DNA of 50,275 nt from an uncultured Clostridia bacterium (lineage in GTDB: Bacteria > Bacillota > Clostridia > Christensenellales > Borkfalkiaceae), in NCBI GenBank assembly GCA_944341075.1, contig CALVLV010000015.1, positions 1 through 50,275 of the forward strand, given 5' to 3'. The notes under the pieces were generated by a model. The model searched no databases. It was not told the DNA's origin and worked only from the letters and a program-made list of their open reading frames with translations. Made by a program: the position numbers and the translations under genes. Below are positions 40,203-45,428 of this stretch, piece by piece (within the stretch, counting starts at the first letter, position 1; each line of letters opens with the position of its first letter).

Positions 40203-40829
40203 TTACAATTTAAAACCGCACACAAATTCGCGCAGTTTTTTTATTGTCACCCTGCCGTTCAATCTGTCGCGCAATGCGGCGTTAAAGTCTTCGGCAAGCT
40301 GCTTTTTTACGGCGACGGTGAAGGTGACTTCGGAAAAATACTCCGCTCCCTTTACCTCGCAGTCGCTTTTTTCAAAAAAGCGGTTACAGATATCTATGCT
40401 GTCGTAGCCGACGGTATAGGCGCTCTCCACGCAATCGAGATACATGAGCTTTGTGGCGCCTTCAAGGTTTTCTGCCGCACAGCCAGAATAGGCGCGCACC
40501 AGCCCGCCCGCGCCCAGCTTTATGCCGCCGAAATAGCGGGTGACCACCACCACCGAACACATAAGCTTTTTATTTTTAAGCACATCTAAAATTGGCATGC
40601 CCGCCGTGCCAGAAGGTTCGCCGTCATCTGAAAACCGCGGAAAATTACCCGTTGGATCGGCTATATATGCATAGCAATTGTGTGTGGCGTCGCTGTACTT
40701 TGCGCTGACGCGCGCAATAAATTCACGCGCCTGCTCCTCTCCCTCCACGTGCGCGGAAGTTGTTATAAAGCGGGAACGCTCTATTACCTTTTCGGTGACG
40801 TGCTCGCCGCCGAGCGAAAGGTAGCCCAT
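40203..40829 (-). CDS. yigZ: IMPACT-family protein YigZ
   Basis: The 208-residue protein begins with an IMPACT N-terminal domain: SRFITTSAHVEGEEQAREFI, THNCYAYI, FSDDGEPSGTAGMPIL, VVVVTRYFGGIKLGAGGLVRAY. A small C-terminal domain follows (DUF1949-type). The biochemical role of this conserved family is not settled. Its ATG overlaps the tyrS stop by one base (TAATG), so it is translated from the tyrS mRNA. Confidence 0.93.
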   Translation of the reverse strand: MGYLSLGGEHVTEKVIERSRFITTSAHVEGEEQAREFIARVSAKYSDATHNCYAYIADPTGNFPRFSDDGEPSGTAGMPILDVLKNKKLMCSVVVVTRYFGGIKLGAGGLVRAYSGCAAENLEGATKLMYLDCVESAYTVGYDSIDICNRFFEKSDCEVKGAEYFSEVTFTVAVKKQLAEDFNAALRDRLNGRVTIKKLREFVCGFKL

Positions 40830-42013
40830 TACTTTAAAATTACCTTTATGTGTTGTTTTTTGCCCTTATGAATGATATCTCCGCTGTTTACGGGCGCGTT
40901 TATATCGGTCACTTTGCTGTCGCCTATGGAAACGCCGCCCTGCTGTATAAGCCTGCGCGCCTCGCCGTTGGAAGAGCACAGTTTGGCAGCAACAAGCACG
41001 GGGATTATTGTGGGCGTTTCGACCGATATCTCCACTTCGGGCAGCTCGCCGCCTCCGCCGAAGGCAGCCTTGGCCTGCGCCATGGCCTTCTGTGCCTTTT
41101 CCTCGCCGTGGACAAGCTTTGTAAGTTCGTAGGCAAGTATCTCCTTCTTTTCGTTTATGCGGCCTGAGTCCCACGCCTCCATCTTTTCGATCTCGTCGAG
41201 CGGGATGAAGGTGAGCATCTTTATGCACTTCATAACGTCGGCGTCGTCTATGTTGCGCCAGTACTGGTAGAACTCGTAGGGGGTGGTCTTGTTTTCGTCC
41301 AGCCATACGGCGCCCTTTGCCGTCTTGCCCATCTTTTTGCCCTCGCTGTTCAAAAGCAGGGTGATGGTCATGGCGTAGGCGTCCTTTCCGCTCTTTTTGC
41401 GTATCAGCTCGGTGCCGGCAAGCATGTTGCTCCACTGGTCGTCGCCGCCGAACTGCATGTTGCAGCCGTAGTGGGTGTTCAGGTACCAGAAGTCGTACGC
41501 CTGCATTATCATATAGTTGAACTCAAGGAAGGAAAGGCCTTTTTCCATGCGCTGTTTATAGCACTCTGCGCGCAGCATGTTGTTTACGGTGAAGCATGCG
41601 CCCACTTCGCGCAGAAGATCGACATAGTTGAGCTTTAACAGCCAGTCGGCATTGTTGACCATTATGGCCTTGCCCTCGCCGAAGTCGATGAAGCGCTCCA
41701 TCTGTTTTTTAAAGCACTCGCAGTTGTGGTTGATGACTTCGTCCGCCATCATCGTGCGCATGTCGGTGCGGCCGGAGGGGTCGCCTATGTGACCTGTGCC
41801 GCCGCCGACGAGCACAACGGGCTTGTTGCCCGCCATCTGCAACCTCTTCATAAGGCAGAGCGCCATAAAGTGGCCTACGTGCAGGCTGTCTGCCGTGGGG
41901 TCAAAGCCTATATAAAAGCGGGCGCCGCCGCCGTTGATAAGTTCGCGTATCTCCTCTTCGTCGGTTACCTGAGCTATAAGCCCGCGCGCCTTAAGTTCTT
42001 CATAAATTCCCAT
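40829..42013 (-). CDS. tyrS: Tyrosyl-tRNA synthetase
   Basis: The 394-residue class I synthetase has HVGH (45-48, the HIGH motif), GGTGHIGDPSG, the tyrosine-pocket segment MIMQAYDFWYL, GGDDQWSN, KMGKT (227-231, the KMSKS motif) and a C-terminal S4 RNA-binding domain (about 330-394). It charges tRNA-Tyr. AAGGAAAG lies 7-8 bases before the ATG. It has a leader of about 200 bases with a short Tyr-containing ORF and an intrinsic terminator, so expression is probably controlled by attenuation. yigZ follows in the same mRNA. Confidence 0.97.
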   Translation of the reverse strand: MGIYEELKARGLIAQVTDEEEIRELINGGGARFYIGFDPTADSLHVGHFMALCLMKRLQMAGNKPVVLVGGGTGHIGDPSGRTDMRTMMADEVINHNCECFKKQMERFIDFGEGKAIMVNNADWLLKLNYVDLLREVGACFTVNNMLRAECYKQRMEKGLSFLEFNYMIMQAYDFWYLNTHYGCNMQFGGDDQWSNMLAGTELIRKKSGKDAYAMTITLLLNSEGKKMGKTAKGAVWLDENKTTPYEFYQYWRNIDDADVMKCIKMLTFIPLDEIEKMEAWDSGRINEKKEILAYELTKLVHGEEKAQKAMAQAKAAFGGGGELPEVEISVETPTIIPVLVAAKLCSSNGEARRLIQQGGVSIGDSKVTDINAPVNSGDIIHKGKKQHIKVILK

Positions 42014-42076
42014 AACTATCTTTCCTTAAATTTATTTTTCATGATTATTTTAACATTGAAAGGCAAAAAATGCAAT

Positions 42077-42106
42077 AAAAAAGCGGTCTGCCCGCAGGCA
42101 AACCGC
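42077..42106 (-). terminator. Attenuator terminator in the tyrS leader
   Basis: On the minus strand GCGGTTTGCC (42106-42097) pairs with GGCAGACCGC (42092-42083) with one U-G wobble and a TGCG loop, followed by TTTTTT. It lies 64 bp before the tyrS ATG and inside the same transcript. Its 5' strand also overlaps a sequence that can pair with an upstream segment (see findings). Confidence 0.8.
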
Positions 42107-42141
42107 AATATTGCAGCATAAAAATACCCACGGCAAAAGAC

Positions 42142-42163
42142 GTATTACCTTGCAAGGCAATAC
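42142..42163 (-). promoter_or_regulatory. Leader hairpin P1 at the end of the tyrS leader ORF
   Basis: GTATTGCCT (42163-42155) and AGGTAATAC (42150-42142) form nine pairs around TGCA. The 5' strand contains Tyr codon 19 of the leader ORF and the 3' strand its stop codon, so a ribosome paused at this Tyr codon would prevent the hairpin. Confidence 0.5.
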
Positions 42164-42216
42164 GAATAGCCGAAGAATATTGCGTTTGAATAAAATGCGC
42201 ACTTTCTTGCTTCCAT
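42145..42216 (-). CDS. Putative tyrS leader peptide (23 residues, three Tyr)
   Basis: The ORF starts at an ATG located seven bases after the last base of the -10 hexamer, that is at the predicted transcription start, so it would be translated from a leaderless message. It begins MEARKCAFYSNAIFF and ends GYSYCLAR. Tyr occurs at codons 9, 17 and 19 (all TAT) and Phe at 8, 14 and 15. A short ORF rich in the cognate amino acid before an intrinsic terminator and a tRNA synthetase gene is the classic arrangement of ribosome-mediated attenuation. Translation is not proven; the ORF is short and could be chance. Confidence 0.45.
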   Translation of the reverse strand: MEARKCAFYSNAIFFGYSYCLAR

Positions 42217-42222
42217 ATGCCC

Positions 42223-42251
42223 AGTTTACCACAAACGCCGTGCCATGTCAA
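42223..42251 (-). promoter_or_regulatory. Sigma-A promoter of the tyrS leader
   Basis: On the minus strand TTGACA (42251-42246) and TAAACT (42228-42223) are 17 bp apart. The -35 begins three bases after the sigK stop codon. The transcription start is expected near 42216. Confidence 0.75.
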
Positions 42252-42253
42252 GC

Positions 42254-42958
42254 TCAGTCGGTGAAAAAGTCGTCGCGGCTGAGGTTTTTGCGCGCCCGCT
42301 CTATGGCGCGCTTTTCTATGCGCGATATGTATGAACGCGATATGCCGAGCTTTTTTGCCACCTCACGCTGGGGAAGGGGATTGCCGTCTTCAAGGCCGTA
42401 CCGCATGGAGATGATGGCAAACTCCCGCTCGGAAAGTATGCCGCGCAGAAGCTTTACGAACTTTTCGCGCTGAACGGACTTTTCTACCTGCGCGAATACA
42501 CTGTCTTCCTTTTCGGCAAGAAGATCGAGCAGGGTAAGCTCGTTGCCGTCCTTATCTACGCCGACGGGCTCGGTGAGTGACAGATTGTTTTTGTGCTTTT
42601 TGCTTGCGCGGATGAGCATTAAAATTTCGTTCTCTATACAGCGGGCGGTGTAAGTGGCAAGCTGGGTGCCCTTGCCCTCGCGGTAGGTATTGATGGCCTT
42701 GATGAGCCCGATAGAGCCGACGGACATAAGATCGTCGGTTTCCGCCGCTCCGCTGTACTTTTTTACGATGTGCGCCACAAGGCGCATGTTGTGCTTTATG
42801 AGGATATTTTTTGCCTCTTTATCGCCTGAGCGGGCGCGGGCAAGGTACAACTTTTCCTCTTCGGGAGGGAGCGGCTTGGGAAAGGAACCCTTGCCCTGGA
42901 CTGCGCCCGTAAAGAAAAATATTTTGCCGAATAACAGACTTAAAAAATCAAAAAACAT
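42254..42958 (-). CDS. sigK: Sporulation sigma factor SigK (mother cell, late)
   Basis: The 234-residue protein matches SigK closely: a hydrophobic pro-sequence-like start (FFDFLSLLFGKIFFFTG), FPKPLPPEEEKLYL, KNILIKHNMRLVAHIVKKYSG, region 2 MSVGSIGLIKAINTYREGKGTQLATYTARCIENEILM, and the region 4 helix-turn-helix REVAKKLGISRSYISRIEKRA. SigK directs late mother-cell genes for coat and cortex. The hydrophobic N-terminus suggests that, as in Bacillus, it is made as an inactive membrane-linked precursor needing proteolysis. The gene is uninterrupted, so there is no skin-type element here. Confidence 0.95.
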   Translation of the reverse strand: MFFDFLSLLFGKIFFFTGAVQGKGSFPKPLPPEEEKLYLARARSGDKEAKNILIKHNMRLVAHIVKKYSGAAETDDLMSVGSIGLIKAINTYREGKGTQLATYTARCIENEILMLIRASKKHKNNLSLTEPVGVDKDGNELTLLDLLAEKEDSVFAQVEKSVQREKFVKLLRGILSEREFAIISMRYGLEDGNPLPQREVAKKLGISRSYISRIEKRAIERARKNLSRDDFFTD

Positions 42959-43069: not shown

Positions 43070-43810
43070 TTATTTTTTGAAGACAAAAAGATATTCATGT
43101 GCGAGTAGCAGAAAATTATATTTAACACTGTTTGTTTTCCAATACCCTGTAGCTTTACAGTTATGTTGCTCTTTTATAATTATTTCTTTGAGCTTAAAGC
43201 CTGCAAGTTTGAAAAGGTTCATGGTTTCAAATGCAAGCGGTTGAACCATACCTTTTTTACGTATATCCCCCATTAAGATAGCACAGAACTTGTCTTTTCT
43301 TAAAACCCTATAAAATTGTTGCGCAACAATTCCCATTTCACGCAAAAAATCTCTATATGGAAGTAATGACAAATCACCTTCTATATCTTCACTATAATGA
43401 ATAATGTCTGCATAAGGTGGGTGAGCACATAACAGGTCTATAGAGCTATCCTCAAGGGGCAATGCCCTCGCATCGGCGACCGCTAATTGTATCGTAGCAG
43501 AAGTTTCAAAACTAAACTGGCATTTCTTTTCGGATAACTCTATTGCCGCAGGATTTATATCAAAACCGAAAAAGTTTCTGTGTGTAAGCTTCGCCTCGAC
43601 AGCTGTTGTGCCGCCTCCAACAAATGGATCGAGCACAACATCTCCTTCATTTGAATATCTTAAAATGATATTACGTGGAATATACGGCGACCAGTTTCCT
43701 CTGTACTTTGCATCATGAGTAGCCCACTTCCCTCTATCAGGAAATGCCCACACTGTATTAGTTTCCAATTCAAAATTGTCAGGTTGTAAAGGTATTTTTT
43801 TATTTGCCAT
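43070..43810 (-). CDS. Site-specific DNA methyltransferase (N6-adenine or N4-cytosine, beta-class layout)
   Basis: The 246-residue protein has the catalytic motif IV as LLCAHPPYADIIHY (a TSPPY/DPPY variant) after the AdoMet motif I VLDPFVGGGTTAVEAKL, with motif I first. Between and after them are FFGFDINPAAIEL and IALMGDIRKK-like sequence (here ILMGDIRKKGM). Together with the Dam-like enzyme two genes upstream it would protect host DNA; DpnII-type systems also carry a second methylase of a different class. The gap to the endonuclease gene is one base. AT-rich compared with its neighbours. Confidence 0.85.
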   Translation of the reverse strand: MANKKIPLQPDNFELETNTVWAFPDRGKWATHDAKYRGNWSPYIPRNIILRYSNEGDVVLDPFVGGGTTAVEAKLTHRNFFGFDINPAAIELSEKKCQFSFETSATIQLAVADARALPLEDSSIDLLCAHPPYADIIHYSEDIEGDLSLLPYRDFLREMGIVAQQFYRVLRKDKFCAILMGDIRKKGMVQPLAFETMNLFKLAGFKLKEIIIKEQHNCKATGYWKTNSVKYNFLLLAHEYLFVFKK

Positions 43811-43811
43811 G

Positions 43812-44351
43812 TCAGTCTTCTATTAATTCAGTGGGAACGGGAAGGCCCAACCTTTTCAACGGAATATATTCGAAATAATAGTCACAATTAACCGACTGAA
43901 TATAATCAAGGACATCCTTATATTGGGGTTTACGAAACCATTCGTCCAGCAAATAAATATATTCAACGTCAATATTTGCAGCGGCCATGAGTTTTTTATA
44001 TTGCTTCCTTTTAAAATCACAGGTCTGTAATTTTTCATCGACAGAGCCAGCAACCTGTTGATGCTTACACTCAATTATGTATAGCGTGTTATTCAATAAA
44101 ACAAATATGCTATCATCAGGCAATAATTTCTTTGATATATATTTATTCCATTCAATATTTAATTCAGCCAGAAAAATACTGTAAAAGCTATTCTTTTTAT
44201 ATATTTCTGCGACCTTTTCATTATCATAGAAAACATTATGTCCAATGACAGCGTAATGAGGTTGTCCATTAAGAAAAGTTGCCAAATCGGTCTTGCCTTC
44301 AAATACTAAACCAGTCCTTGTGTTTCCACCACCCTTGCCACTTTTAATCAT
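43812..44351 (-). CDS. Putative type II restriction endonuclease (PD-(D/E)XK type)
   Basis: The 179-residue product lies between two DNA methylases in one operon. It starts SGKGGGNTRTGLVFEGKTDL and carries PDDSIFVLLNNTLYIIECKHQ at about residues 77-97, which fits a PD-(D/E)XK active site: an acidic D, then E-C-K with hydrophobic residues before the E. The following QTCDFKRKQYKKL resembles the helix after the catalytic strand. The recognition sequence cannot be read from the protein. AAGGAG lies 6 bases before the ATG. Identification rests on the motif and on the flanking methylases. Confidence 0.75.
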   Translation of the reverse strand: MIKSGKGGGNTRTGLVFEGKTDLATFLNGQPHYAVIGHNVFYDNEKVAEIYKKNSFYSIFLAELNIEWNKYISKKLLPDDSIFVLLNNTLYIIECKHQQVAGSVDEKLQTCDFKRKQYKKLMAAANIDVEYIYLLDEWFRKPQYKDVLDYIQSVNCDYYFEYIPLKRLGLPVPTELIED

Positions 44352-44360
44352 ATTTGCTCC

Positions 44361-45428
44361 TTATTGATTACTTATCATAAGTTCGTTTATTTTTCCGCGC
44401 TTTTCAGCATTGCTGTTTATCATTCTCGATGCCGAAACTCGCTGTATTTTATATGATTTATACAACTCGTCAAAAAAATTGTCTTCCGGGTTGACATTTT
44501 TCGGATCTGAATTGCTCAACACTATCTTTGCCCCTTTATCATTTATTTCATCTATGAATAAAGCCAACCGACGCTGTTCGGAATCATCAAAACAATCGGA
44601 ATTATACGAATTAAACGCAGAGGTCTGCGATATCGGCCTGTACGGCGGATCGATATATACAAATGTTTTGTCATCGATAAATTCCCTTGACAAAGTATAA
44701 TCACCGCAAACTATAATAACATTTTGCAATACAGTTGATATATTTCGAAGATTATTCTCATCACATATCTTAGGGTTCTTATATGCTCCCATAGGCACAT
44801 TAAATTGGCCATGCCTGTTTACACGATAGAGACCGTTGAAACATGTTTTGTTGAGAAAAATGAACAGGGCAGCTTTCTCAACGGCAGTTTGCTCATTCAA
44901 GGCTAAACTATTAAAGCGTTCTCTTGCCGTATAATAATGATATTTGCGTCCATTTTCGTCCATAGGAAGGAAAGCAAGTTGCATTTCTGAAAGTCGCGTT
45001 ATGAGTTCTTCAACATTGTCCCTTATAACCTTATATGCATTGATGAGTTCTGCATTGGTATCACTTATATAATATTCTTCAAAATTATATTTGCCGATAA
45101 CGCTGAAAAACAGCGCTCCGCCACCGACCATAGGTTCGGCGTATTTTATAAGCCCATTATCTTTTGTGGGAATTTTTTTTTCAAGTTCAGAAACGAGTTG
45201 GCTCTTCCCTCCAACCCACTTAACGAAAGGCTTCAATTCAATGTTATGCTCGCTTTCATAACGCGTAGTGCGTTTATCTGCCGGCTTTTCTGCAAATGAC
45301 GGTATTATCCACATATTTCCAACCATCATAGCGCCAGATATACGATTTTCCGAACATAAAATAGCCACCCTGCGCTGTGATATGCCCCATTTTTCGGCGG
45401 CCTCTTTAGCCGAAATATAACTTAACAT
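44361..45428 (-). CDS. Dam-family DNA adenine methyltransferase with an N-terminal helix-turn-helix domain
   Basis: The 355-residue protein has an excisionase/MerR-like DNA-binding region at the N-terminus (YISAKEAAEKWGISQRRVAILC to MWIIPSFAEKPADKR, about residues 4-57). A complete Dam (D12 class) methylase follows: FVKWVGGKSQL (about 70), EPMVGGGALFFSV, LFIFLNKTCFNGLYRVN, and motif IV FVYIDPPYRP. Dam enzymes methylate adenine, often in GATC. The added DNA-binding domain could regulate the operon or extend specificity. GGAG precedes the ATG by about 8 bases; a promoter (TTGCTA, 17 bp, TATAAT) lies just upstream. Confidence 0.88.
   Translation of the reverse strand: MLSYISAKEAAEKWGISQRRVAILCSENRISGAMMVGNMWIIPSFAEKPADKRTTRYESEHNIELKPFVKWVGGKSQLVSELEKKIPTKDNGLIKYAEPMVGGGALFFSVIGKYNFEEYYISDTNAELINAYKVIRDNVEELITRLSEMQLAFLPMDENGRKYHYYTARERFNSLALNEQTAVEKAALFIFLNKTCFNGLYRVNRHGQFNVPMGAYKNPKICDENNLRNISTVLQNVIIVCGDYTLSREFIDDKTFVYIDPPYRPISQTSAFNSYNSDCFDDSEQRRLALFIDEINDKGAKIVLSNSDPKNVNPEDNFFDELYKSYKIQRVSASRMINSNAEKRGKINELMISNQ

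Follow-up and report, generated by a model that had tools for sequence, protein, structure and literature searches.

A Tyr-rich, probably leaderless short ORF and alternative RNA pairings upstream of tyrS point to ribosome-mediated transcription attenuation in a clostridial genus

The window analyzed here is the whole 50,275-nucleotide stretch of DNA from an uncultured Clostridia bacterium of the Borkfalkiaceae (GenBank assembly GCA_944341075.1, contig CALVLV010000015.1). On its minus strand, the gene for the sporulation sigma factor SigK is followed by a short structured leader and then by tyrS, which encodes a tyrosine--tRNA ligase (Table 1). The leader promoter lies directly 3' of the end of sigK, and a SigK-like match was obtained at 57 of the 63 genus loci carrying tyrS or the leader. 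The promoter, ATG, short ORF, hairpin P1, and intrinsic terminator that an earlier note had described on this DNA were all found on the minus strand at the positions it had given. On the other side of sigK, between it and an ABC transporter, the minus strand carries three genes (43070-45428), with matches to a D12-class adenine methyltransferase, an N6_N4 DNA methylase, and a short PD-(D/E)XK region, which look like a restriction-modification cluster.

Table 1. Features of the sigK-tyrS region of the window, in the order in which they would be transcribed
Feature	Position	Strand	Basis or remark
sigK, sporulation sigma factor	42254..42958	(-)	NCBIfam TIGR02846, 302.2 bits (cut-off 298.65); upstream neighbor of the leader
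Leader promoter TTGACA-17-TAAACT, TG before the -10	42223..42251	(-)	TTGACA 42251-42246, TAAACT 42228-42223
Leader ORF MEARKCAFYSNAIFFGYSYCLAR*, 23 codons, predicted leaderless	42145..42216	(-)	ATG 42216-42214, TAA 42147-42145
Tyr codons of the leader ORF	codon 9, 42192-42190; codon 17, 42168-42166; codon 19, 42162-42160	(-)	
Hairpin P1, over the ORF end and stop codon	42141..42164	(-)	5' strand contains Tyr codon 19
Segment 3, proposed antiterminator 5' strand (CCGTGGGTA)	42125..42133	(-)	Complementarity to segment 4
Segment 4, partner of segment 3, within the 5' arm and loop of the terminator	42092..42100	(-)	
Intrinsic terminator	42077..42106	(-)	Stem 42106-42083 (-19.2 kcal/mol), T-run to 42077
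Second promoter-like element TTGCAT-17-TAAAAT with TG	42047..42075	(-)	Between terminator and tyrS; absent from the earlier note
AAGGAAA, likely ribosome-binding site of tyrS	42027-42021	(-)	
tyrS, tyrosine--tRNA ligase	40829..42013	(-)	NCBIfam TIGR00234, 402.7 bits (cut-off 113.8); Pfam tRNA-synt_1b and S4

A tyrS gene was present in 99 of the 101 genomes searched, and upstream DNA was sampled at 58 loci of 57 genus genomes, the window's own included, and at 12 loci of other families; at L007 this DNA is missing, the contig end falling inside tyrS. A covariance model was built from 19 aligned leaders and run over 93 genus genomes, where it gave 25 matches, the 25th of which (L196, E 6.5e-4) was dropped as false because its locus has no tyrS. 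The other matches place the leader directly upstream of tyrS, once per genome, in 24 of the 93 genomes, again counting the window's own; five of these leaders (L175, L182, L190, L192, and L195) joined the set after the model had been built. The model found no leader in 69 of the 93 genomes, which are drafts and in some cases lack tyrS. Gathering tyrS leaders from relatives, as the earlier note had advised, thus shows the short Tyr-containing ORF to be kept across these 24 genomes, and on sequence grounds we take the window leader to be a real, conserved element. When 297 genomes of the order were scanned with the same model, matches were returned from the window's genome, one other genome of the genus, and one genome of another family (G192), and among 80 tyrS loci from named records a single one, L093, matched clearly; it is left out of the leader count because its contig and that of L014 are equal in length and it probably comes from the same genome.

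Across the 24 leaders, Tyr makes up 91 of the 514 residues after Met, compared with 3.8% in five proteins of the window, and every leader ORF has at least two Tyr; the window ORF by itself, with three Tyr in 22 residues after Met, reaches p ~0.05 against 3.8%. The peptides form groups characterized by ...NAIFFGYSY... (window group), ...FAHLYYR... and ...YCGYSYYR... (A2), ...GYSYCYY... (B), and MNI.AIKNGYVY... (C), the group labels, like the second tyrS type considered below, being our own assignments. Among the 11 leaders of A2, single-nucleotide codon differences are synonymous or not in a ratio of 101:69 in the ORF frame, the two shifted frames giving 46:156 and 21:195, and three leaders of the window group give 8:2 in frame against 0:8 and 1:5, leaders inside one group being related to each other. 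The window and its nearest partner show 1:1, too few differences to be informative, and the ratios are mixed in B (11:19 in frame against 0:16 and 18:17) and in C (9:11 in frame against 2:20 and 4:10). The ORF of L192 is shifted in frame by one base, which counts against function in every carrier. The Tyr-rich, homologous ORFs and the in-frame synonymous bias in two groups agree with the original proposal of a Tyr-sensitive leader peptide, a function that we infer from sequence.

The transcription start predicted for the window leader is 42216, the A of the ATG. In the 23 leaders with the promoter in sequence (L045 begins at a contig end and falls outside this count), the gap between the -10 element and the ATG, read by eye, is 6 nt in 22 and 7 nt in L009, and a pyrimidine precedes the ATG in all 23. 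We also collected genus-wide consensus promoters that have an ATG 2-14 nt downstream of the -10 element; among the matches listed (n = 150, from related genomes), a gap of 6 is the commonest, at 25 sites, and a pyrimidine stands at -1 in 25 of 25 of these sites, compared with 59 of 125 at other gaps. Such promoter spacing together with a pyrimidine at -1 is the pattern that would be expected of leaderless starts, and the near-constant 6-nt gap and its genus-wide peak fit the suggestion, made when the locus was first described, of a possibly leaderless tyrS leader mRNA, a reading that we consider probable. The same pattern with a short ORF occurs at five sites of the window's genome including the tyrS leader, the remaining four showing no obvious amino-acid leader; no other clear amino-acid leader appeared among the at most 29 loci read across the order, a minority of the sites counted; and among 20 pheS and trpS loci of ten genus genomes the leaderless pattern was seen once, without aromatic enrichment. 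In genus g40 of the same family, several genomes have at least 10 consensus promoters followed by an ATG 5-7 nt past the -10 element, mostly 6 by eye, a spacing that suggests frequent leaderless transcripts.

The window leader folds with z = -4.2. In the 19 aligned leaders, 92.8% of the cells of P1 and 96.8% of those of the terminator are paired, with four pairs changed on both sides in each stem, which gives 94.9% and eight such pairs for the two together. They hold 18 both-side-changed cells compared with 5.7 in shuffles (none of 500 reached 18), and sliding the partners drops pairing to 33-48%. The covariation that the earlier note had proposed to look for in its alternative stems is therefore present in P1 and the terminator, but the antiterminator pairing that it had put forward is not conserved. 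That pairing, between a segment inside the ORF (42187-42176) and 42112-42100, does exist in the window, with 12 bp and one bulge, at a duplex energy of -10.5 kcal/mol, but its closest homologues, the five further members of the window group, have only -2.3 to -8.7 kcal/mol; because of this weakening in relatives, the pairing is probably due to chance, and it was rejected as the antiterminator.

The antiterminator that we propose pairs segment 3, whose sequence is GCCGCGGGTAAA in several relatives, with segment 4. On a MAFFT alignment, 86.5% of their cells pair, compared with 31-49% when the partners are slid, and 8 cells are changed on both sides, compared with 3.0 in shuffles (7 of 500); the percentage paired and the covariation score are equalled by 50 and 60 of 500 shuffles, respectively, which is a moderate signal. 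Without an alignment, the best antiterminator duplex has a mean of -15.0 kcal/mol over the 24 leaders, whereas shuffled spacers give -10.2 kcal/mol (sd of the mean 0.46); it reaches p <0.05 singly in 14 of 24 leaders (p = 0.075 in the window). The leaders' own partners beat 2000 of 2000 random deals, in groups that are related and with the window represented by its best free duplex, which is located inside P1; because of this location, segment 3 of the window was set by hand for the fold model and the ORF-complementarity test described below. Over the leader set we thus find an alternative antiterminator that would exclude the terminator, moderate as it is on the alignment. Energies calculated for the window leader at full length are -51.3 kcal/mol for the terminator form, -41.0 kcal/mol for the segment 3/4 form, and -41.5 kcal/mol for the form with the earlier pairing forced. 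Given that the terminator form is more stable by ~10 kcal/mol, antitermination, if it occurs, has to be settled while the RNA is being made, and given the closeness of the last two values, energy alone cannot choose between the antiterminators; conservation does, and it makes a strand 3' of P1, segment 3, a more likely antiterminator strand than the segment inside the ORF.

In many leaders the Tyr-codon part of the ORF is itself complementary to segment 3 (e.g., UAUUACCGCGGC with GCCGCGGGUAA), this duplex reaching p <0.05 in only 7 of 24. We modeled the folding of the transcript up to segment 4, either free or with a ribosome edge 12 nt past the start of the A-site codon, taking the best of several Tyr codons at this one fixed edge. 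In this model, the best Tyr stall adds at least three antiterminator pairs over the free RNA in 18 of 24 leaders, and no such gain is obtained in L002 (the window), L009, L014, L052, L054, and L175. The window RNA without the terminator 3' arm already favors the antiterminator when free, with 8.4 antiterminator pairs compared with at best 7.3 when a ribosome is stalled, and the window copy is a weak example of the leader. The polarity of control had been left unsettled in the earlier note, where a ribosome stalled at the Tyr codons would have covered the antiterminator itself; with segment 3 placed downstream of P1 this problem disappears, so that the polarity would be the normal one of attenuation, a stall at Tyr codons freeing segment 3.

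The following scheme is inferred in its start site, its translation and pausing steps, and the direction and extent of control. RNA polymerase would start at or beside the A of the leader ATG, and the ribosome would therefore initiate at an AUG at the very 5' end. Under a shortage of charged tRNA-Tyr, it would pause at the Tyr codons and hold the ORF off segment 3, which could then pair with segment 4 before the terminator 3' arm exists, and transcription would enter tyrS. When Tyr is plentiful, the ribosome would finish and leave, the ORF could pair with segment 3, segment 4 would join the terminator 3' arm, and transcription would stop. In the four leaders of group B, segment 3 lies beneath a ribosome positioned on the stop codon, which would itself favor termination; in those of the window and A2, such a ribosome leaves segment 3 uncovered, and termination would need its departure. 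We consider it quite likely, from these features of the leader set, that the leader is a ribosome-mediated transcription attenuator of tyrS.

Synthetase genes of Bacillota are the usual territory of T-boxes, which exist elsewhere in the window's own genome (seven matches at E 0.001), at 2 of 10 pheS and 0 of 10 trpS loci of the genus, and just upstream of tyrS at 7 of 20 other clostridial loci, taken from the 80 named-record loci, with an eighth at L097 lying far from tyrS on the other strand. That the leader is itself a degenerate or unusual T-box is nevertheless scarcely credible, given that covariance-model scans returned no T-box at gathering score in the whole window, none among the five weak Rfam matches obtained in E-value mode for 41950-42350, and none at gathering score at 39 genus tyrS loci, 20 with the leader and 19 without; the earlier report that the window tyrS lacks a T-box holds. 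A T-box was also absent from one further locus without the leader, the tyrS of another family, and the leader, at ~140 nt, is shorter than the 219-position T-box model. Other Rfam families were ruled out for the leader, as none reached its gathering score in the window. A protein or other ligand, for example TyrS, might instead control the terminator by acting on the structured leader, the ORF being incidental or an aid to folding. The strong fold and the covariation of P1 would suit such a ligand, as would the window's fold model, in which the ribosome has no effect; we judge it very improbable even so, because what is conserved is the ORF frame, the start position, and the Tyr codons, and the match to the Ribosomal protein L20 leader (RF00558), at 20.5 bits (E 0.11), is far under its gathering cut-off of 58.7 bits.

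A different possibility is raised by the TAAAAT element, which 13 of the 24 leader loci, among them that of the window, have between the terminator and tyrS. The tyrS of this genome probably has, in this element, an additional promoter of its own after the terminator, from which basal tyrS transcription would probably come; the leader could then be an independent short transcript combined with the sigK terminator, and tyrS could be driven by the second promoter only. Two close relatives, L005 and L006, have the terminator and such an element in loci where the leader promoter with its ORF was not seen, and the terminator there can therefore serve sigK alone. However, the element is missing in 11 of 24 leaders (a weaker promoter-like site is present in L009), and in five of these the T-run and tyrS are just 16-32 nt apart, with no good promoter match between them, so that transcription most likely reaches tyrS at these loci through the terminator. 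A free RNA would also leave the Tyr enrichment, the in-frame synonymous bias, and the antiterminator unexplained. We regard an independent transcript as unlikely and continue to prefer attenuation of tyrS by a translating ribosome.

The leader occurs before both tyrS types of the genus, which share the site behind sigK and have ~55-67% and at least 81% identity to the window tyrS (tblastn); the divergent type is that of L046-L052, L054, and L195. On a SigK tree of 56 genus loci, 23 of them leader rows, the leader needs at least 8 changes, is clustered relative to shuffles (0 of 500 as low), and is forced by the well-supported branches to only 2 changes; tyrS type needs at least 7 changes on the same tree. 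The weak model scores of L005 and L006 (29.4 and 32.4 bits), where the terminator and second promoter-like element are kept, suggest that these are decayed leaders. With a leader that is patchy in one genus and stands before two tyrS types, change among T-box, leader peptide, and plain promoter becomes traceable, and, if the leader is leaderless, it provides a natural setting in which to test this mode of initiation in Clostridia. DAHP synthase of one type was absent from the 93 genus genomes when searched with a query from family f14 that matched 6 of 6 f14 genomes; because the query came from another family, this absence only suggests that the genus may depend on outside tyrosine.

The trp and pheST leaders of Escherichia coli are ribosome-mediated (leader peptide) attenuators. 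Like them, the tyrS leader has a short ORF with cognate codons, mutually exclusive antiterminator and terminator, and an intrinsic terminator, and, as in pheST, the gene under control would be a synthetase gene. Unlike them, it is found in Bacillota, is based on Tyr and predicted to be leaderless, has Tyr-codon regions that can mask the antiterminator strand, and often has a second promoter behind the terminator. The Tyr T-boxes of other Clostridia (RF00230) serve the same gene and presumably the same signal; T-boxes sense by tRNA binding, whereas the tyrS leader would sense by a translating ribosome. Closer in lineage are the His leader peptides at hisS*/hisZ and his operons in Firmicutes, which, in the available text of the reports (PMC2965389, PMC9413887), likewise place leader peptide attenuation at genes often under T-boxes; they differ in sensing histidine and in their genes and lineages, and that text does not state their ORFs to be leaderless. 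As for leaderless attenuators, the attenuator RNA of Sinorhizobium meliloti trpL, as described in the available text of PMC7298713, starts at the trpL ATG and has Trp codons, an antiterminator, and a terminator, thus opening with an ORF ATG as the tyrS leader is predicted to do, but it belongs to Trp biosynthesis in an Alphaproteobacterium. The mycobacterial poly-Cys attenuators (Canestrari et al. 2020, cited in PMC9031893, from the available text of which we take this account) also sense an amino acid through a leaderless short ORF; they differ in using Cys and are described there as acting on the translation of downstream genes.

The available text of a 2005 survey places no synthetase gene of Firmicutes under classical attenuation (PMC1262725), and the later exceptions that we found to this statement concern histidine only. 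No Tyr leader peptide before tyrS is described in the available text of PMC1262725, PMC9413887, or PMC3937554, nor was one found in the literature searched, a full-text collection with most subscription papers outside it. The tyrS leader is the first case of Tyr/tyrS attenuation that we have found for Bacillota, which is not proof of novelty.

The match in G192, a genome of family f14, is weak (E 3.8e-4) and corresponds to a Tyr-rich ORF, MKRNFVLNAYYYGYGYYYDGRCFDMR*, with a 6-nt gap, which precedes a DAHP synthase gene and then tyrA, the gene after DAHP synthase having been checked in G192 only. This DAHP synthase occurs at five f14 loci; a Tyr-rich ORF lies upstream at four of them (L252, L254, L255, and L256), and none was seen upstream of the gene at L253. 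In these four leaders, a strand at or near the end of the ORF can pair with both the terminator 5' arm and the Tyr-codon region of the ORF, as read without a shuffle control and with only five pairs to the 5' arm in L254; the tyrS leader has a similar three-strand arrangement. Among the four, the G192 copy alone has a leaderless appearance: an AAGGA-like site is present in L256, the start in L254 is farther from its -10 element, and the L255 ORF has an ambiguous start. We see about an even chance that these leaders and the tyrS leader represent a portable, often leaderless, Tyr-sensing attenuator of a clostridial order, in which Tyr codons mimic the terminator 5' arm and rival that arm for pairing with a single antiterminator strand, and which, before two tyrS types in one genus and DAHP synthase in another family, would have taken the role of the T-box for tyrosine while T-boxes are kept at, for example, pheS. 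A second DAHP synthase of f14 is preceded at five of six loci (L257-L260 and L262, with L259 partly seen; not L261) by an aromatic-rich ORF (e.g., MNRVLKNVYFAFSFFFGWFYFSRFLRCK*, FFFGWFYFSR-like), possibly a Phe/Tyr/Trp attenuator, and at L257 we recognized by eye aroB-like and aroA-like frames downstream.
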